Below, in pieces: positions 33,847 to 52,100 of a stretch of 64,000 bases of DNA. Both the position numbers and the translations under genes were made by a program. The stretch spans positions 1,736,001-1,800,000 of the forward strand of contig JAPEIS010000015.1 in NCBI GenBank assembly GCA_029531795.1. The letters run 5' to 3'. Below the pieces are notes generated by a model. That model did no database searches and was not told where the DNA came from. It saw nothing but the letters and a program-made list of their open reading frames with translations. The DNA is from Sclerotinia nivalis (taxonomy: Eukaryota; Ascomycota; Leotiomycetes; Helotiales; Sclerotiniaceae). How positions within the stretch are numbered: the first letter of the stretch is position 1; each line of letters begins with the position of its first letter.

Positions 33847-36800
33847 TTATATCACAATTGCCAGATCTGGCCTGTCCATCTTCTCGTCATCCATGTTTGG
33901 GTAGTAAGGCACGATAGCATCGGCCGATAATACATAAGCGCTGTTGTAGAGCGTCCAATAAGCTAGAAATATAGTTAGTACTAATCCTATAGATGGGCAA
34001 TGGGATTTCAAAAAAGTGACTTACGTTGTCTAACTTTGCGTGCTGGATGGAATAATCCAGCCCAGACATAGTTGAGAACAAGACCTGGTCCAATTGCCAT
34101 CCTGATAGCTTCAATAGCTTCGACAATGCGGTCGATGACGTGAGGACTCGTCTCGAAAAGATTGGGGTATAGTAAGTTGAGAAGATGAAGCATAGCATCT
34201 TCACAACCAAGACCAACCACACCCAATGCTACGTGCTTGACAACTGAGGCAGCAGTCTGTCTATGAACTTGGTCACGATCAATCAATGCATCTTCAAGTA
34301 AAGGTGTAATGGCATAGACATAATCTTTGGCCATCTCACCAATGTACTCAAAGAGGAAGGAAAGTGATTTTAGGACACCATTTTGAACGTTGAGTTCGGG
34401 AACACGGTATTCGTTCATTAATGCTGGAAGGACTGTGAATGGAGCGCAAGTTTCTGCAACAATACCAATTGCTACAGCTGTACAGACACGAGATTGACGT
34501 TCTTGAACTCGAAGATTGTTTAAAAGAGTCGCGAGAACATCCTGAGGTCCAATGGCTTTGGCGATGAAACCGAATGTGTTATTGGCAGCTCGACGAATAC
34601 CTTTCTTGTGAGCCTTGAGCATATCTAAAAGTTCGAAACAGATTCTCATCCATTCTCTAGCATTAACACTCTCAGGTCCACGATCAGCGATACGACCAAC
34701 CAAATCAATGGTATTTTCTTGTACCTTCTCGTGTCGATTTCGTAAAATTGGTGTAAGTCGAGGAAGCAAGTCCTTGATTGGAGGTTGCATTTGGTTGATA
34801 CCAACCACAGTGACAATAGAACGCAAGGCGCCAAGGATAGAACCAAGAACTTCGGGGTATTCTTCACCGAGGTATTCGTAAAGCACAACACCTAGCTTGC
34901 CCATCAAAGCATCTTCACCACATTGCTTCATAACCATTGCTATTCGAGAGATCAAGTCCGCCGCTTGCTGTCGGACAGTCGCGGATTTGTTGTTTAATCG
35001 CCACAAAATGGTACTGACAATCTGGGGAAGGTATGGCTTACATCTCGTACCAAGAGCGTTGACCACAGTTCCGAACCCATTCAACATAACAATATCCTCG
35101 ACACTCTGTTCCTGGAAAGAGTGCAAGATACCATCAATAAGTCGTTCTTCAAGTCTTTCACCGATATCTGCAGCACCAAGACTAGCAATGACCTTCTCAA
35201 TCGTCTCCACAGTCATTTTGCGGTACGCCTCGCTTTCATCCTTCAAGTTGTTGACGATGCGCTCGACAATTTCGCCAACACCAACCTTTTGTCCCAGATC
35301 AACTGTGGTTTCAACCACTTGTCTGTAGTTACGCTTGTCCAATGCCATTCTACGAACCCAGAAACTTTTGAAAAATTCATCTAATACGTTCTCTTTGAGG
35401 TATCCTGCCGTGACTCCGTCGGTCCCAGCACACTGTGAAACAACCTTGAGTACTACTTTTTTCATTTCCTCGTCAGGAGATGAAAACTCTCTTAAGAGGA
35501 TCTCCATGATCTGTCCGGTATAGTAGTTGGCGTATTCTTCGTCCATTAAAGGAATGATGTATCCAACAGCCTTCAAAAAACCAGCGAGACCCTTTCCACG
35601 TTGTTTCCTACTCATGAGTCAGTATGATGTATTCCGAATGTTTGATCCGAGAAGAAAGGAAAATGTTTTTCGAATGTTTCATCCGAGAAGAAAGGAAAAT
35701 GTATTTCGAATGTTTGATTCGAGAGAGTCCAGTCCGGTCCAAAGGGACGAGTAGTGATGTATGAAATGAAGTCCAGTCCAGTCCAAAAGAGGTCCAAAAG
35801 ATAGTCCTAGGAAGTCCCTTTAGTCAAGCTTAGGGCTCGACAAAGCATCTTAATGCCTAACACTCTTGTTGTGCCTATTAAGATGACCAACAATCTTGAA
35901 AGCAGCATTACATAGAAAACATTTGTAAGGTTTCTCAGTGGACGTCATATCTGCTGCCTTTCTGATGTGTGCTGGCGTAATATTGTGCTGATCTAGTCTA
36001 TACTGTGATACCTTAGAGATCTTACAGATATCACAATAGTAGACCTTAGCTTTTCTGATTCTTGTCCTAGAATCCTTGTTGAGCTTGTTATGATTCTTTT
36101 TACGCTCAATAGATAAAGCTTCAAGCTGTTCTGCTGATAATGCTCTATCACCTATGATAGGTTCTGATAAACAACAGTGCCCACAGCATCCATCATACTC
36201 TAAGGTTGTATGATCCCAAAGACAGCAAAAACTCATTTTAGCATCTTTCTCAACGCTTCTCATAGCCCACAAAATGTAGGTAAATGTAGCTTCAAGAAGT
36301 AAGAAGAACGTACGAAGGATAGGAACACGAGCAGGGGGTGGAATATCAATCCAGCAGAGCAAGCCGACATGAGTGACCTTGAAGCCATGGTTGAGAGCTG
36401 TAGCAACATACCTAGGCAAGGTATACTCGCCATAGTAAGCTTGTACTCGTCTCCAAACCCCAGTCTTCCCACCAGTGCCACTCCCAATGTATATCTTAGG
36501 TTTACAACCAGGCTTCTCAAGCACCACAAGATAGATAGCCCAAAGTCGATCAGTCTTGACTGGGGCACGAAGAGTCTTGAGTGTGTCAATGGTTGGTGGA
36601 GTAATAGCTTGAAACATTTCCCAAAGGCAAGTAGAAAAGGTAAGGGAAACACTAGAGGCGATTTCTTCAAAGACGTCTTGGCTGCTGTAGACCTGATCGT
36701 AAATAGTATCCTTATTGATCGACGATGTCGTATTGAGTACAAGCCAAGTAGCTGATAGTATAAACTTAAGAAGTAAGGCCTCCATACTCTTCAACTTATT

Positions 36801-39199
36801 AGCATAGTCAATCATGTATGAAGTGATTACTTACAAGATAGATGAAACCCAAGTTCTTTTAGTACCAAATGTTCAATCACTAATGATCGATTCCTTAAAA
36901 CAAGAGTGCCGAAGGGTCTAATTTACTCAACAGCGTATAGCAGTAAGAAAAAAGCTCGAAATTAATCCCACAATCCGTTTTAACAGGGTATATTGTTTGG
37001 CAGATGTTGTAGAATGTTACTTCATGAGTTGTGAAGAGGGTGCCGATGAGTAGATTAGAGAGAAGGGAGTGAAAAGAAATCCAGAAGATCAATCCGACAA
37101 GTGCCATCTTGGAGTCATGTAGAGGAAGGTGTGGCTGCATCCTCAAATGGAAGGCGTTGAGACAGGGGTTAGTATCCAGGCAGGGGTCGTGAGTATAGTC
37201 GAGCATCCAGGGGGATATCCAGATAGTTGTCATGAGTAGAGAAAAAAAAATGAAGAAAATAATACACTGACCTTGATCCGCTCCACAAGGGGTTCAAGAT
37301 ATCATCGAAACTTTCAATACCATAAGGATTCGCTGCCTCTGCTAAAGCTGCAATTGCCAAACTGGTGACAGTTCGAACCTTTGTCTGATCGTCATTAAGA
37401 TTACCACCGATACAGTCAACCAACCCTTTCAGATGAGGAAGGACAGCACAACCCATCAAGATAGGAATTTGTTGAACGATCTTAACACCAGTATGTCTTG
37501 CTTGCCATGACTTCTTACTCCTACAAACCGCTCGGAGGAAAGGAAGAAGTGCAGGGATACCTAGTGCAGAAGCGACAACAGCAAAGGCTCTCGCAGTGGT
37601 ATTTCGGACATATTCATCAACATGATCAATATCTGGTCGCATAGTACTGATCATGTGGGCCAGCCCTGCTGCTTTACTGAGATTGGAGATAATTTCTCGA
37701 CCTTCAACTCGAGCATAGTAATCTTGGTCGATGAGCAATGGTTCGATAACGACCAAAATCTTGTGGACATATGGTCTCACAAGATCATCAAGCTTGTAGA
37801 GAATACGATCAATAACCTTGACTAGCAAATGGCGCTCTTGGTCTTCCAATGTCTTTTCCATAAGCAATGGAAGAATTTGATTGAACAAGGGTCCAGCACC
37901 AAATTGTCTGGCGTTATCAGTGAGTTGACGCAAAGCTGTCTTTCGCATCGGTGGAGTACCATTCTTGACCTTAAGTAAAAGTCTCATGATCTTTCTTTCC
38001 TTGAGTTCTTCGACACTCATAGAGTTTTCGTCGCTACCATCAGTGAGCTTTCCGAAATATGCCATATCCTCCGCCTTGAAGAATTGTAGATCTCCCACGC
38101 CTGGTATTTCTGTTGGAAGCTGCTTTGCTAGCTGTCTTCCGCTGTCTGAATCTTGCATCATGAATCCACCAGCAGGCAATGGTGTAGCCATGACCTTTTG
38201 TGCAATAGTTCGAATTGGAGCGTAACCAGGCGGAGGTTCTAGAATTTTGTAGCCTTCAGATGGCAACATCATGTCCAGCTCCTCGTCTGAAAGTGGCGCA
38301 TTTCGTGATGAAATATCAGTCCCGAATGTAGTTGGCATAGCTGGGCCACCCATTTGTGATGGATGCATTGGAGTTACTAATCCTTGATTGCCCATAGGAG
38401 TGGCAGCAGGTGCTTGATCCCATCTAGATCTTCTCTTAGGAGTTTCATCAACTGAGGCACCTCCAACCGCCGGTGTTTGATCCCATCTCGAACGTTTAGT
38501 TTTACCCTCCGCTGATGGTGGAGCCATACTGGCATCTTCTTCAGTGCCCACATCCCATCTCTTCTTTCTTTTGCGCCCGCTTGCGACAGCTTCCGTAGAG
38601 CCAGCTTCGTCGTCCTCCTTATCATCACTGTCTTCCTTGATCAGCGTTGCAGTATGGTGGACAACCTCGCCGTTCGCCTTCTTGTCCTCGATGGCTTTCC
38701 TAACTCTTTCTTCTTCGCGCTCGAGCTCTCTTCTGGCCATAACATCTCTGTAGCTCTCGGCATTTCCATCAGCTCTGGTGGGAGTTAGGACTCGGTCGTG
38801 TCGACGCTTCTGGTAATCGGTTTCGCGATCGGAAATTCGTGCACTTTTTTCTCTGCCCAAGAGAATATCTTCCTCCTCGACCCCATTACCATGCGCGAAT
38901 TCGTTCATTTGTTCCTTGGAAGCTGTATACTGGCCTACCAATCGTCGACTGGTGTCAGCTTCCTCCATTTCATCATTGTCACCATCTGTCACTGCAATGG
39001 AAGTGTTATAGCCTGCGAATCTATCAACGCCATCGCGCTCATAAAGACTGGTATCGAAGCTTTCTGTTAGGGAGGCCTTGGTGGAAACATCAGTTCGCTG
39101 ACTTGACGGATCAAATGTCTTCGATCCCTTCTTACCAGCAGAGGCAGCATTCCTCTCAGCCTGTAGCTTCCTGATCGTCTCGAAATCAGTGTCGGACAT
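33847..39199 (-). CDS. SF3B1: Splicing factor 3B subunit 1 (SF3B1/Prp10/Hsh155)
   Basis: Scaffold of the U2 snRNP SF3b complex that clamps the branch-site helix in the nucleus. Exons 39199-37272, 35607-34025 and 33962-33847 give 1208 residues, close to fission yeast Prp10. The N-terminal third is charged and disordered, with three Arg-Trp-Asp motifs ([27 protein letters not shown]) of the kind bound by UHM domains. The rest is a long HEAT-repeat array ending in the SF3B1 tail [20 protein letters not shown]. Intron 2 (62 nt, TACTAAC branch) is ordinary. Intron 1 (35608-37271) is 1664 nt, splits the conserved block [20 protein letters not shown] within an Arg codon, and contains a GIY-YIG ORF. 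All exons are intact, so the host gene appears functional. Confidence 0.95.
35612..35619. repeat. 8-bp direct repeat, left copy
   Basis: TCATGAGT, identical to 37230-37237. Candidate target-site duplication around the SF3B1 intron insert. Confidence 0.55.
35635..35725. repeat. 36-bp tandem repeat, 2.5 copies
   Basis: Copies start at 35635, 35671 and 35707, each beginning CGAATGTTT and continuing through CGAGAAGAAAGGAAAATGT. Copies 1 and 2 differ at only two positions; copy 3 is partial. Located near the 3' end of the host intron. Confidence 0.9.
35726..35830. repeat. GTCC-rich subterminal stretch of the element
   Basis: Irregular repetition of GTCCAGTCC and GTCCAAAAG words on the plus strand, between the GIY-YIG ORF stop and the 36-bp repeats. 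Confidence 0.5.
35850..36815 (-). CDS. GIY-YIG nuclease-like protein with two C2H2-type zinc fingers
   Basis: Uninterrupted 321-codon ORF nested in SF3B1 intron 1, same strand as the host. The GIY-YIG core runs from about 92 to 185: AIY at 93-95, YIG at 109-111 in [20 protein letters not shown], an Arg pair at 122-123, and a Glu at 175 in [10 protein letters not shown] that fits the metal-binding Glu. The block [13 protein letters not shown]...GLLCW is typical of a fungal GIY-YIG group. C-terminally there are two fingers of identical spacing, C-x2-C-x12-H-x5-H (C261/C264/H277/H283 and C299/C302/H315/H321), giving likely DNA binding. A Cys-rich patch lies at 197-215. A second ATG at 36785 ([10 protein letters not shown]) is possible, and a GTAAGT at 36834 could mark an upstream exon. 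Nicking or homing activity is inferred, not shown. Confidence 0.8.
   Translation of the reverse strand: MIDYANKLKSMEALLLKFILSATWLVLNTTSSINKDTIYDQVYSSQDVFEEIASSVSLTFSTCLWEMFQAITPPTIDTLKTLRAPVKTDRLWAIYLVVLEKPGCKPKIYIGSGTGGKTGVWRRVQAYYGEYTLPRYVATALNHGFKVTHVGLLCWIDIPPPARVPILRTFFLLLEATFTYILWAMRSVEKDAKMSFCCLWDHTTLEYDGCCGHCCLSEPIIGDRALSAEQLEALSIERKKNHNKLNKDSRTRIRKAKVYYCDICKISKVSQYRLDQHNITPAHIRKAADMTSTEKPYKCFLCNAAFKIVGHLNRHNKSVRH
36895..37233 (-). CDS. 112-codon ORF upstream of the GIY-YIG ORF
   Basis: Open from ATG 37233 (a later ATG at 37107 begins [18 protein letters not shown]) to TAA at 36895, in the same intron and orientation as the nuclease-like ORF. It is hydrophobic in the middle and has no domain I recognise. 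It could be an upstream exon or a second small product of the element, or may not be translated; its first codons overlap the right copy of the direct repeat. Confidence 0.3.
   Translation of the reverse strand: MTTIWISPWMLDYTHDPCLDTNPCLNAFHLRMQPHLPLHDSKMALVGLIFWISFHSLLSNLLIGTLFTTHEVTFYNICQTIYPVKTDCGINFELFSYCYTLLSKLDPSALLF
37230..37237. repeat. 8-bp direct repeat, right copy
   Basis: TCATGAGT, identical to 35612-35619, close to the 5' end of the host intron. Confidence 0.55.
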
Positions 39200-45730: not shown

Positions 45731-46215
45731 TTGGGTTGATAGGTTGTGTAGAAGTTGTGGTGTACGGGAAAGAGATGTGGGATTGTTATGTGCCTTTATA
45801 CTACTCTTAATGTGCAAATTTTCTATCGTGTTTCAACTACTATGTTATCTTTCTCTCTTACTTCGAAACAGAAACACAAACTTATACATTAGGAACTAAG
45901 AAAGAAAAGAAAGGCATTGTGACCGGAATCTTCTCATAACAAATCATGAATTCAGCTCGAATTACTTTATCGAAGCTCCAGGAATGATCCTAATCAACTA
46001 AGAAGTTCTCCCTTAGAAGCAATGACAAGGACCAAACACATTCAAAGAGATTCTTGCACGCCTCATGTATCAGCACATATGTCACATCTGGACAGTTTTC
46101 TGTGAAAGATTATTTTTGGAAGACTGAAAACCTCATTTTTATTGGATTGAGAAATACTTATAAATTTCCAAAATGTTCTATTGGGGTTTCCTCCAGGCTC
46201 TTCATTTACTTTCAA
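45731..46215. promoter_or_regulatory. Promoter region of the coiled-coil gene
   Basis: The sense strand carries AGTATAAAGGCA about 70-80 nt upstream of the ATG at 45730, a good TATA box. The decayed paralogue has GAGTATAAAGGCA about 80 nt upstream of its own ATG. Confidence 0.5.
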
Positions 46216-46847
46216 CTATCTCTCACATTGATATCTGCTCCTTAGTTCTGCTTCACGATTCCTCGCTTCCATCTCCTTCTTCTTCTCTGCTTCCATCTCT
46301 TTCTTCTTCGCTAGATCCAGTAAAATCTTACCTATGGATGCTCATCCCACTGTTGAGTCCTGTTCCTTTTCAAGTCTTTCGCTGTTTGTCTTTTCCCTAT
46401 CTAATTCCTCCCTCAGTCTCATCACTTCACGAATAGCTCCATCTTGTTCGTTCTCAGCATTCTCTTGCTTAAAAAGAAAATTATTAATCTCCTTTCACAA
46501 CTTCTTTATTCTCTTCGCCGCCCCCTCCGATTCCTTTTTCATTTCTTTCAATTCCTTCTTCGTCTTTTTCAATTCCTCCTTCATCTCTTTCAACCTTTGC
46601 TCAGCTGAAAACTTCTTTAGTTCAAGCTCAAAAATTGTCGCTAACATCTTATAGCCATCTTGGATACTACTTGTTGATTGAATTGATTCAGTGATGGCAT
46701 TTAAGGTATGGCTAAGATTCGGAAGACCTGATGCTGTCGAAGATTGTGGAAAGGTGTTGTCTGGTAATGTGGGGATTGCTGATGGTGAAAGTGATGGGTT
46801 CCTTTGAGAGCCGATGAAGTCGGCGAGTCTGAATTTGGAGTCATCAT
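46216..46847 (-). pseudogene. Decayed paralogue of the coiled-coil gene
   Basis: Starts MMTPNSDSPTSSALKG at 46847, resembling MKMVPSTDSPP of the neighbour. That frame soon runs to a stop, while the coiled-coil frame opens elsewhere (ELELKKFSAEQRLKEMKEEL, then KESEGAAKRIKKL), implying a frameshift. The coiled-coil frame then hits TGA, continues as KEINNFLFKQENAENEQDG and REVMRLREELDREKTNSERL, hits a second TGA, and continues as ILLDLAKKKEMEAEKKKEME to a TAG at 46216. Both TGAs are single-base changes from CGA or GGA. Unspliced read-through gives no intact product, so it is called a pseudogene. Confidence 0.6.
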
Positions 46848-49125
46848 TATGATTGATCTTCAAGTTCAAGTACTTTGTATTGGATTTGAAAATATGCAGC
46901 AAAAACAATCGGGAATTTTCTCTTGCCTTTATACTCACTTCAAGTCTCTATTCTTCGCCTAATTCAACCATTATGCCGTTGTTCCATGTTTCATGCTGTC
47001 TTGAAACTCTTCTCAAATGTTGTCTCGAGGAAGTCTTACAAAGAGAGGCAATGAATGTATCTGCGTGGATATTCTAGATAAATCTCTCTTTTCGAGATAT
47101 TTCATGTTTATGCTCCGTAAGGCGCGAAGTTGCTGCCGCACTCTCGAATAAATAGAACAGTCATGAATGATATAACCATATCCATTTAGCCCTTCTTGGA
47201 TCGAATTATCGGATATCTAATCTAGCTTTCGACATTATATCCTCAAATAATTTTTAAAAAAATTATCCAACTGTTATACCGTTGAAATATTCTCAGAAAG
47301 TAGTCTCATAGCGCTAGCCCTGAAGATTATAATATTGACAGATTATAGCATCTCATGTACGAGTTTTATGATGAATTGTTCTTTTCACAATGATAATGGT
47401 CCGATTTTTCTGTTTACTATTCTACTTCAATTAATACCCATCAATCGAGCCCCCTTTCAAGATTCATTTGCTATTCCACGCATCTCATCGAAGGTCCTCA
47501 CTACCTCTACTACTATTTCTTATCTCTACAATCTCCAATATCCCCTCTCCCTATCCATACCCTCCATTTATTTCCACACCCCACTCCCTAAGCAAATCCC
47601 ATACAAATCCCCCAAGTTCATTCCATATCTATCCCTAGCTGTATCTAGCTGTATCTACATCTGTATGCCTGATGTAACAACCTCAAAGTCAAATTAACTC
47701 GGCTTTCAAAGCTACACCATGTATAAGATCTTACATAGCTACATATACACCCTTCAACCACACAGCTGCACCCCTTCCTCTCCTTCTACTCCAACCATAT
47801 CAACATCATTTTCTTTCCTTTCCACCTTCGGCTACTCTTTCCCTCCCTGTTCCTCCGTCCCGCGTAACCTTCTCCACCCTACAACCATAAAATAAATATC
47901 TTTCCCCAAATTCGTCCTCCAATTTTGTTCTGCAAAAATCACTCCCCAGACCACTTCGAGCCTACATCCCCCCAACCCCAGCCCAATATCTTAACAGTCA
48001 ACACCACACAAATTCCGAAAATCAAATATACTAACCACATCTTTCTTTCCCTACATCACTAATATTACGCTCCATTACACATCACTCAACACTACTCCAT
48101 CCCTCCATCCCTCCACCTCTCTCACTCCTCCATTGACTTCTCTCTCTCAACTTAAAACCCTAAACACACTCCCATTGCAATCTCCAATCTCCAATCTCCA
48201 ATCTCCAATCTCCAATCTCCACCAAACAAACCCCTTGACCATAAATAAACCTACAAGGCACACCACCAAACAAAAACCCAGCCCAATCCAACCCAACTAC
48301 AAAAAGATACAATATATTAAACCCATAATCCTCAATCCCCCCCTATCCCACCACCTCTCAAGTATAACCCACACAAATTCTTCAATTCCCATACTTATTT
48401 CACTTCAATTCTTCCATTCTTCGTTCGCTTACTCCCATCCCATCCCATCCCCATAGATCCCATGCATTTCCCTCCTACTACCCATACAACACTCCTCGAG
48501 TATCTACTATCTGTCGACATAACAATATCCCACAAGCAAACCCCACATATCCCTATTCCAATCAACTGAAATCAAAATTTGCATCGCATCATCAGTATGA
48601 AATGTCCAATCACTCAGGATATAGAATGATTCAGTCTGACAAACCAAACCAAATCCAAGCTTTCATATATTCGATTTTGGAAATCACTGCAATCATTCAT
48701 TGAATAATCCATCTGAATTTGTCATCCCATATCCACCTTTCAAGCACGTCATTCATTAGATCACTCCAATTTCCACATCAATCCATCAACGTCGAGAATT
48801 AAACCCCTTTCATTATTAGACTAAAGTCCAGGCTGTTGATTTGACGCGCTATGAATCAATTTCAAGATCAATCGATTCTTATTCCCATTCCATCGCTGTG
48901 CATTAACCGTCCTTCTTTAATGCCTGCATTTGAACCTAGTCCCCCTGAACACCTTTTGAGATTCTATACGCCACGCTCGCGCAAGCCAAGCCAAGCCAGA
49001 CCTCAAGGACTAAAATACTACCAAATTAATGATTTGCTCCCCAGCCAAATGCACCCATCATAACCACTAGCATCTCCCATTCCCATTCCCACCACCCTTC
49101 CCCTTCTCCCTACCTCAATCCCCCC
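46848..49125. other. Long pyrimidine-rich spacer
   Basis: 2.3 kb without a recognisable gene. From about 47440 to 49125 the plus strand is strongly C/T/A-rich and G-poor. It includes the CAATCTC repeat at 48178-48219. Short open frames here (e.g. 48133-48456, 48851-49063) are low complexity or unsupported. It could be a long 5' leader or non-coding transcript of the plus strand; no direct evidence. Confidence 0.5.
48178..48219. repeat. CAATCTC 7-bp tandem repeat, 6 copies
   Basis: Six perfect 7-bp units in the pyrimidine-rich spacer. Confidence 0.9.
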
Positions 49126-52100
49126 CTAAAGCCTCTTCCAAACAACATCCTTCTCAAAAATCCTCACATCCTGCACATCCTGAAACTCAAACCCATCCAA
49201 ACTTTCAACTTTCAACCCAAAGCCACTCTCACCAAACATACTCTCATCCTCACTGTCGCTATCAATTGCAGGTTCAGTCTTCTTTCCCAAGTGAACCTTG
49301 GGTATTCTTGCTTTCGGTGGATTTTCTTTAATACGACGATAAATACGGATTATCGAATTTCTAAGAGCAAGATATTCGAGTTCACAGTCGGGATTATGAG
49401 CGATACTGTCTATGGTGAATTTTCGGAATTCGCTCCTCACCAATTGGCAGGTATCTTCAGAGCGGAATTCGATTGCGTGGAGAGCCCGGAGGTTTTTGAG
49501 GCCCGAGAGATTTTGGTTAAGGATGTGCTAATTTCAGGGTTAGTACACGACTTTTGAATGTTTAAATGGACTTGTAACATCTGGATGTGGACTTTGACAA
49601 CTTTGCTAAATCCACAATTGTCATGTGCATCGAAACGAGAATGCTGAAATATCAAGAGAAACGAACTTTTAAATGTCCAAAAAACATTACAACATTGAAA
49701 TATCTCTCACAACAGAAGAGCTGTGAAACAACACAGAACAAAAATGGGGTGAGGTTAGACATAAACATACCATAACTGAAACATCAAAAGCAGCAGCCAA
49801 TTCCTCCAACCCTTTAGCTTTCCGACACAACAGCACAGTAGTTTTGGCATCTAAATCCCATGCAAAAGGTGTTAGTTGGTGAGGAAGACTTTCCTGATGT
49901 ATAGAAAGGACTTTCAATGTCGGGGCATGTTTCTTGAGAGCCAATCTTCGGATTTGCTCTATGGAGACTCTTTTCTTTGAATCTGCGGGGTCTACCTTTG
50001 TTCTGGATGCGCGTTCAAGTATACATAACTCGGTGACTTTTGCAAGTTTTCCGATGCAGTCTAGGAAAGTTAAGGTAACGTTATCTGTGTAGATTTCATG
50101 TAGCGGGAGAGGATCGATCTTATTTTCGCGTGCTACCATAGACCAAAATGGAGTTTGAAAGCCAACACTGAGTAAAGTAATTCTTCTCAATACTCTGATG
50201 TCAATAGCCTTTGATATAACGGAACTTTTTAAAGGTATTAGGTATAGTGATAAGTTCTCAAGGGCAAGACCTCGCGTTTTTCGAATGTACTCGCTCATGT
50301 CCTTGTTGGTATTGACAACTGGGGCCTCAATTTCTGTTAACTTTCCCTTCTCGTTTGTCTTAACCTGCTCTAGAGTTTGTTCAAACTTCTCAGCAGAAAC
50401 TCCTCGAGCAGGAATAGTTTCTGAATTAATCAGCTCATCAACAACTTCCGAGGCTTGATGTTCTTGCACTTCCATCGGAACTGGCTCGAAATCCGTCTCG
50501 GTTTCAGTAGTAATCCCTTCAACAAATTCCAAATCTACCACAAGCTCCGGTTCTTCAATATCGATGTCATCTGGATCTACGATATCCTTGGATTTAGAAA
50601 TTCTTGTCTCCGTTGTCGATTCGTCAAAAAGACCGGGTTGATCTTGAGATTCGCCCTCGTCCATGACAGTTTCGTCTATTGGGTCGGCCACAATTGGTAA
50701 TTCGGAATTCTTCCCATTGACCTCTTCCGCATTATTTTCATTTGCATTACTGGATTCCGCCTTGCTACTTTCGCCATTATTACCTTCCGTATTACTGGTG
50801 CCTGACTTATCAGAAGATTCGCTTTCCCTTTTCAAGCTCTTGAGGTAAACCTGAGAACCCTTCTCGATCGTTTCCTGGACGAGTTTTTGCATGCCCTCGG
50901 ATTTATGTTCAGCCATGGCCTTCGCCGATTGTTGCATTAACGCTACAAACATCTTCAAGGGACTGGACTTTTCTGTCTTTTCCTCTGGTCCACCCTCTGG
51001 CTCATCGGCCTTTTGACTAGGTGAATCCGTACCGCCTTTCGAAGTTGACGAATCAGTACTAAAGATCTTTGCCAAAGCTGCTTCTTGTGCTTTTTTTTCC
51101 TCCGTAACTGTCATCCCTTTTAAAACAAACGCATCAGGTACAGTATCTGAGGCGGTGACAGGAAGTGCTATCAATTGGCCAAATTCATCCTCGGCTTCAG
51201 ATTCATCATCTTCGACGGGAATTTCCACAGCTGGCTTTCTGGTTCTGGAAGCAAGCAGCTCCGAAAATGACAATCTTAGTGAACTCAAAGTTGTCGATGA
51301 GTTCTGTATACAGTCTCGAATTTCAGATAGACAATCCAAGGCATCTATATCAAGAACAGCCAGACTCTTTAAGTTTTTGAATCCTGAAATAGTTTGAGAT
51401 GTCCCATCCGCAATCGGAGTCCGACCTTTTCCTCCATTTTGTTTTGACTTAGTTGATGTGAGAGATGACTGGCTTGGTACGAAGACTGGAGGAAAACCGA
51501 ATGTTGAGGGGTTGTAGTTCGTCGAGGAAGTTGGATTTGGATTAGTCGGAGGAACATGTATTGAACTTTCAGCTTGCATTCTGACATGGAAATGTTGTAG
51601 AGCTTCAATACGATGTAATTCTTTGAAAATCTGCCCACTCAATTTCACACGAATATCCCATCTAAGAATCAGAAATTAGCATGGTCACATATTGTTAGCA
51701 GGGTCAACCAACAGGAAAGTCTCGAGAGCTTTAGCTTTGCGCAAAGTCAAAAGCAACAAAGTATTCATGAATTTCCCACAAGAGGTATCATATAGATAAG
51801 GACGGTATGCTAGCTCTCCTTTTTGACTTCCATTCAAAGGCTCAAGTATAATTTCCTTTAGGTGTTGGGAGTAATCGTAATCACTTGTAACGAAAGTATC
51901 CAGCCCCGCCGCCAAACTATCGATAGGGGAATCATTAAGTGCGTCATTGTCATCTGGAAAGACAATATGGAAGCTTCGATATAGTTCCTTGGCTGCTAGA
52001 TTTCTGAGATGCTTCGAAACGAGAGAGAGCGCAATCAAATCGGCGGTTGACGTCTAGAATAGAAGACGTGTTAGGATGTGATGCGGCGCAAAGATGACAT

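Follow-up and report, generated by a model that had tools for sequence, protein, structure and literature searches.

The VMA1 intein VDE and the PRP8 inteins are homing elements of conserved nuclear genes that are removed by protein splicing, and introners are a source of new spliceosomal introns, which spread in many near-identical copies and have no endonuclease. VDE is named in the available passages of a study of budding yeasts, which describe the WHO/HO elements as nuclear homing elements with a zinc-finger fusion and the conserved housekeeping target FBA1, and which report an intron at the inferred WHO cleavage site in Kazachstania FBA1 (PMC7282813). The closest described systems are the shintrons of mirusviruses. 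According to the available passages of PMC12768974, where introners are also named, shintrons are introns with spliceosomal borders and no group I or group II signature that carry endonuclease genes (GIY-YIG among others), they show a target-gene preference, and homing was proposed for them; such endonucleases are stated there not to have been observed with spliceosomal introns before. The available passages of a review of organellar introns give no nuclear example (PMC8393795), and no report of endonuclease-driven introns in fungal or other cellular nuclear genes was recognised in searches of open-access literature, outside which most subscription papers lie. Here, we describe a 1664-nt intron of the SF3B1 gene of the ascomycete Sclerotinia nivalis, which contains an open reading frame (ORF) for a predicted GIY-YIG endonuclease and lies in a 64,000-nt stretch of DNA (the window; assembly GCA_029531795.1, contig JAPEIS010000015.1, positions 1,736,001 to 1,800,000).

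With a probability of about two in three, the SF3B1 element belongs to a family of spliceosomal homing introns that reside in nuclear genes of ascomycetes. Such an intron would encode a GIY-YIG endonuclease that has zinc fingers at its C terminus and cuts the intronless host allele at or near the intron position; with the filled allele as the template for repair, the complete intron would be copied into the break. As the intron would be removed from the mRNA by the spliceosome of the host, the insertion would cost little. After fixation, the ORF would decay; fossils, and perhaps also long ORF-less introns, would be what remains.

The SF3B1 intron and its predicted endonuclease

The sequence-only reading had placed a large intron here, and its borders were confirmed on the DNA. 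The intron is of the GT-AG type, with AAG/GTCAGT at the donor, CTGAC starting 15 nt before the end, and TAG/GAAACA at the acceptor; CTGAC resembles the branch-site consensus. Joining the two exons restores the host frame, and the residues across the join are those found in Sclerotinia trifoliorum SF3B1 (100% identity over the 141 residues compared). Judged by these borders, the intron has the spliceosomal donor and acceptor of a shintron and would be removed by splicing in vivo. It is about 27 times as long as the other SF3B1 intron read (62 nt); the sequence-only reading had put it at about 30 times its neighbours. A group I intron with a homing endonuclease was considered and rejected, because there was no Rfam group I match: cmscan of positions 35400–37500 revealed no group I or group II signature, and its single match, to a microRNA, was spurious.

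The endonuclease ORF is located within the intron, on the same strand as SF3B1. The frame is open for 326 codons, of which 321 are counted from the first Met, whereas in most relatives in the family alignment the start is near the second Met. The nine in-frame codons past the stop (DALSSPKLD) resemble the tail ALSS-x-x-LD of several relatives; since the tail continues in frame after the stop, the ORF ends slightly early in comparison with those relatives. With this qualification, the 321-codon ORF of the sequence-only reading stands and its core is intact. It may be expressed, and it is not a chance frame, as it has 34 relatives at E ≤ 1e-3 in a single-sequence search (the best-scoring one 49% identical) and 215 in a search with a profile of 26 members, which scored the 7997 candidates with the most words in common and listed 120 of the 215 relatives.

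In an alignment of 79 members, including 78 relatives chosen by hand, there is no variation at Y95, G111 and E175, and conservation reaches at least 90% at Y109 and R123, so the GIY-YIG positions proposed earlier (AIY, YIG, Arg and Glu175) are both present and conserved. The putative catalytic Tyr, Tyr, Arg and Glu would be Y95, Y109, R123 and E175, roles that we presume by analogy. Both zinc fingers have the spacing C-x2-C-x12-H-x5-H, also as claimed before. The structure model, which covers 320 of the 321 residues, has a mean pLDDT (predicted local distance difference test) score of 95, and its best match is the catalytic domain of the homing endonuclease I-TevI. Neither PDB nor BFVD yielded a Foldseek match at E ≤ 0.001, and zinc fingers ranked first in PDB; the best 60 of 323 rows of a sequence-profile search of PDB were zinc-finger proteins, as far as named, and Pfam put no name on the domain. 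The GIY-YIG fold is a predicted one; together with the conserved residues, it points to an endonuclease of a homing superfamily encoded by the intron.

Copies in the genome and relatives in other ascomycetes

Ten single-protein searches of the genome (50.3 Mb, 31 contigs) led to four further places besides SF3B1, all with partial or decayed copies. The C-terminal half of the endonuclease is found within a 546-nt intron of a SART3/Prp24-like gene, the fingers only within a 531-nt intron of the gene for ATP synthase beta (ATP2), and fingers within a 1876-nt intron of the clathrin heavy chain gene. The DNA of all three introns shows clean borders, a CTAAC site and, across the join, a restored host frame, and all three fossils are on the host-gene strand. 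The clathrin copy is the least sure: it was found by one query (E 5.6e-4), and in a small local search with 129 family sequences, 75 had a match to its intron at E ≤ 0.01, the best of them at 2e-8. The remaining copy, on contig C17 (L004 4505–4978), has at least four stops, and no host gene was found for it; Pfam analysis of 10 nearby ORFs named only SAS4, about 1.2 kb downstream. Further genome matches are weak (E > 0.04; C1:7331029, C6:824990, C1:6464602 and C9:2338433).

Four of the five copies, SF3B1 included, are thus in same-strand introns of conserved genes; at least four of five would be expected by chance with a probability of about 3e-5, under the assumed figure of 5% for the share of the genome filled by such introns. 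A degraded ORF and paralogues at random intergenic sites had been named beforehand as signs against a homing element. The ORF core is undegraded, and instead of a scatter over random intergenic sites, three of the paralogues are in introns of conserved genes; the C17 copy departs from this pattern. An artefact, in which the SF3B1 intron came from a misjoined contig or from faulty gene models, is hardly credible: although the junctions in other species are known from predicted proteins only, the window lies within a 2.19-Mb contig, and the fossils with clean DNA-level borders are in three more host introns on other contigs.

Codon usage was odd at two of the eight host exon flanks tested and ordinary at the other six. 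As few as 38 of 20,000 random draws were as extreme as the ATP2 downstream flank (L020 1959–1997), and 107 of 20,000 as extreme as the clathrin upstream flank (L024 3727–3765), while among 4256 windows taken from these genes, 71 (ATP2) and 9 (clathrin) scored as low. With eight uncorrected tests, this is only a hint that exon flanks may have been co-converted.

In other ascomycetes, host segments were sought wherever a Pfam label or a protein name hinted at one (17 full sequences, the 34 first-search relatives and the ends of 11). In six annotated proteins, a host segment and the endonuclease are joined (Table 1), the junction being the end of host similarity in the predicted protein, accurate to one or two codons. 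All six chimeric proteins with a readable junction are in conserved housekeeping genes, and aconitase is filled at three different sites. Taken with the four of five genome copies, this bears out the preference for conserved exons that the sequence-only reading had suspected. A strategy tied to core splicing genes, also proposed there, is not borne out: SF3B1 and SART3/Prp24 stand against the non-splicing hosts ATP synthase alpha and beta, vacuolar-type ATPase (V-ATPase) A, clathrin heavy chain, aconitase and carbamoyl-phosphate synthase, and the splicing-gene context is incidental.

The name cpa2 is attached to four endonuclease-only proteins, two from Elasticomyces elasticus and one each from Neophaeococcomyces mojaviensis and Recurvomyces mirabilis, which presumably sit within the carbamoyl-phosphate synthase gene. 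Scans of viral_contigs and genome_contigs, weak ones with one short peptide pattern each, revealed no family relative in viruses or prokaryotes. The chimeric gene models that run into the endonuclease ORF (P0034, P0068, P0073, P0094, P0107 and P0116) are misannotations. The gene model of a Colletotrichum kahawae protein (P0121) apparently contains a tandem pair of endonuclease N-terminal/GIY-YIG units.

Two explanations that do without homing have to be weighed against this distribution. A nested host gene with a cellular role, for which the intron is merely a home, would agree with the intact core of 321 codons, and mobility does not follow from intronic placement alone; however, copies in different genes and species, together with the decayed copies here, look mobile and turned over, and no orthologue above 55% identity was found in the first search, which makes this explanation improbable. 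Penelope elements also join a GIY-YIG nuclease to their machinery, a reverse transcriptase, and a remnant of this kind that came to be in introns by chance would account for the GIY-YIG domain and the dispersed copies. It is still less probable, given that the ORF list of the 1664-nt intron, as read and with no reverse-transcriptase model run, holds no reverse-transcriptase-like ORF, that single-exon chimeras of other species carry the nuclease alone, and that the insertions occupy recurrent positions in conserved genes.

Table 1. Features of the SF3B1 locus (window positions), chimeric proteins of other ascomycetes (host junctions) and ORF-less introns of S. nivalis.
Feature	Place	Strand	Basis or relation
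SF3B1 coding exon upstream of intron, from ATG at 39199	37272..39199	-	Only scattered substitutions against Sclerotinia trifoliorum SF3B1
Spliceosomal intron with ORF, 1664 nt (putative)	35608..37271	-	GTCAGT donor, CTGAC near end, TAG acceptor, host frame restored
5' splice site GTCAGT	37266..37271	-	Read from DNA
Endonuclease ORF, 321 codons and stop, likely start at second Met (36785)	35850..36815	-	ORF list, alignment with relatives
GIY-YIG domain, residues 90-215 (AIY 93-95, YIG 109-111, R123, E175)	36171..36548	-	Alignment, predicted structure
C2H2 finger 1, residues 261-283	35967..36035	-	Sequence, predicted structure
C2H2 finger 2, residues 299-321	35853..35921	-	Sequence, predicted structure
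In-frame remainder of family C-terminal tail, past stop	35820..35849	-	Comparison with relatives
36-bp tandem repeat, 2.7 copies, near intron 3' end	35627..35724	not assigned	Repeat analysis
Branch-site-like CTGAC	35618..35622	-	Read from DNA
3' splice site AG	35608..35609	-	Read from DNA
SF3B1 coding exon downstream of intron	34025..35607	-	Read from DNA
Next SF3B1 intron, 62 nt (comparison)	33963..34024	-	Read from DNA
ATP synthase alpha chimera	host up to APFTG		Colletotrichum tanaceti, predicted protein
V-ATPase A chimera	host up to EASIYTG		Cadophora, predicted protein
Aconitase chimera	host up to GWASPK		Lachnellula subtilissima, predicted protein
Aconitase chimera	host up to about SIIEYH		Zymoseptoria tritici, predicted protein
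Aconitase chimera	host from QWDRRD		Vermiconidia calcicola, predicted protein
Carbamoyl-phosphate synthase chimera	host from TTYNAS		Glarea lozoyensis, predicted protein
ORF-less aconitase intron, 379 nt	L071 2689-3067		Exactly at Vermiconidia filled site
ORF-less carbamoyl-phosphate synthase intron, 893 nt	L072		Exactly at Glarea filled site
ORF-less ATP1 intron, 435 nt	L025 1977-2411		About 8 nt downstream of Colletotrichum position

Elsewhere in the window, GC (guanine-cytosine) skew is strongly negative at positions 46001–50000 (−0.32 and −0.40 per 2-kb block), the extreme of the window.

Filled, empty and ORF-less sites

In S. nivalis, VMA1 is uninterrupted through IYTGITVAEYFRD, with no intron at the Cadophora site, and aconitase is likewise uninterrupted, with no intron, at the Lachnellula and Zymoseptoria sites. 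As these three sites, filled elsewhere, are without any intron here, what moves is probably the entire intron and not a gene that slipped into an old one, and the free-standing gene that the sequence-only reading took for the moving unit is the less likely of the two. The sheltering of a GIY-YIG/zinc-finger gene by spliceosomal splicing, the core of that reading, is supported by the sequence.

The chief rival is that mobile endonuclease genes colonise old spliceosomal introns as safe havens, while the introns themselves do not move. ORF-less introns of S. nivalis at the exact positions filled in Glarea and Vermiconidia, and one close to the Colletotrichum ATP1 site (Table 1), speak for it. These introns are long (379–893 nt), however, and could themselves be relics of lost elements, a possible reading of long ORF-less introns in general. 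No similarity to family proteins was detected in the three of them at E ≤ 0.01 (the aconitase piece searched was 325 nt, mostly intron); by eye, they contain many degenerate short repeats. The three intronless sites count against the colonisation of old introns, as do SF3B1 genes on short contigs. At the SF3B1 junction, 119 of the 120 relatives listed of 1839 fit a pattern of no insertion and the remaining one is contiguous by eye; proteins of annotated genomes are already spliced and uninformative on introns. For 14 of the 120, chosen by hand, the longest contig leaves 169–1451 nt beside the coding sequence, too short for a 1664-nt intron, with a short intron still possible. On this evidence, we regard the colonisation of old introns as unlikely, and spliceosomal homing introns as the better account.

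Target-site preference is suggested by three ATPase insertions. In an alignment of the three paralogues, the insertions in ATP1, ATP2 and VMA1 share one TG column. The ATP1 and VMA1 endonucleases fall in one clade of 10 rows with a support of 100/100. The ATP2 fossil, which consists of fingers only and is outside the tree, is matched best by five sequences (83–89 bits; next, 58), and these make up the five-row subclade to which the VMA1 element belongs. As annotated, the ATP1 element is without fingers and so gave no comparison with the fossil. In the ATP2 gene, AEEFREEG is read where VMA1 and ATP1 read AEYFRD/GEYFRD, as expected of a co-converted or recoded flank. Two aconitase elements, inserted at different sites, are apart within one weakly supported group of 25 rows, and the third is elsewhere. 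The tree comprises the window protein and 123 of 128 relatives (the five left out had fewer than 150 matched residues); its bootstrap is unsettled, with 58 of 120 inner branches open and no good support for the position of the window protein. Resting on the three ATPase insertions, the pattern fits nucleases that have their own sites.

Relation to known elements and significance

The SF3B1-type introns share the anatomy and the proposed mechanism of mirusvirus shintrons, whereas the hosts of the latter are viral morphogenesis genes and those of the present family fungal nuclear housekeeping genes; C2H2 fingers are not mentioned for shintrons in the available passages (PMC12768974). The GIY-YIG homing endonucleases of group I introns, such as I-TevI, provide the closest solved fold and share the catalytic positions, but the intron here is apparently spliceosomal, and the DNA-binding part is predicted to be the two C2H2 fingers. 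As with VDE and the PRP8 inteins, the hosts are conserved nuclear genes, and VMA1 hosts both kinds of element; unlike inteins, the introns here would be removed by the spliceosome. If homing holds, the family would be, like introners, a source of new spliceosomal introns, but with few, divergent copies at specific conserved sites. WHO/HO elements are likewise nuclear, zinc-fingered and directed to a conserved housekeeping target, but, as far as the available passages describe them, their nuclease is intein-derived and located beside the host gene, not within an intron (PMC7282813). A WHO/HO element is ruled out at SF3B1 by the predicted GIY-YIG-like fold, the intronic position and the intact host gene.

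The origin and spread of spliceosomal introns is an open question, and endonuclease-driven insertion of whole introns into intronless exons has so far been proposed for mirusviruses. A family in culturable fungi would make this idea testable and, if true, would place a further class of selfish element in the nucleus, next to inteins and WHO elements; it also explains why gene models in several of the public genomes of fungi are chimeric. The chances are about even that ascomycete nuclear genomes host a large and old family of spliceosomal homing introns, a continuing source of introns in the most conserved genes, of which many long ORF-less introns would be relics and one lineage would have moved between the paralogues ATP1, ATP2 and VMA1 by recognising the same conserved exon. 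Some nuclear introns may thus be selfish travellers.
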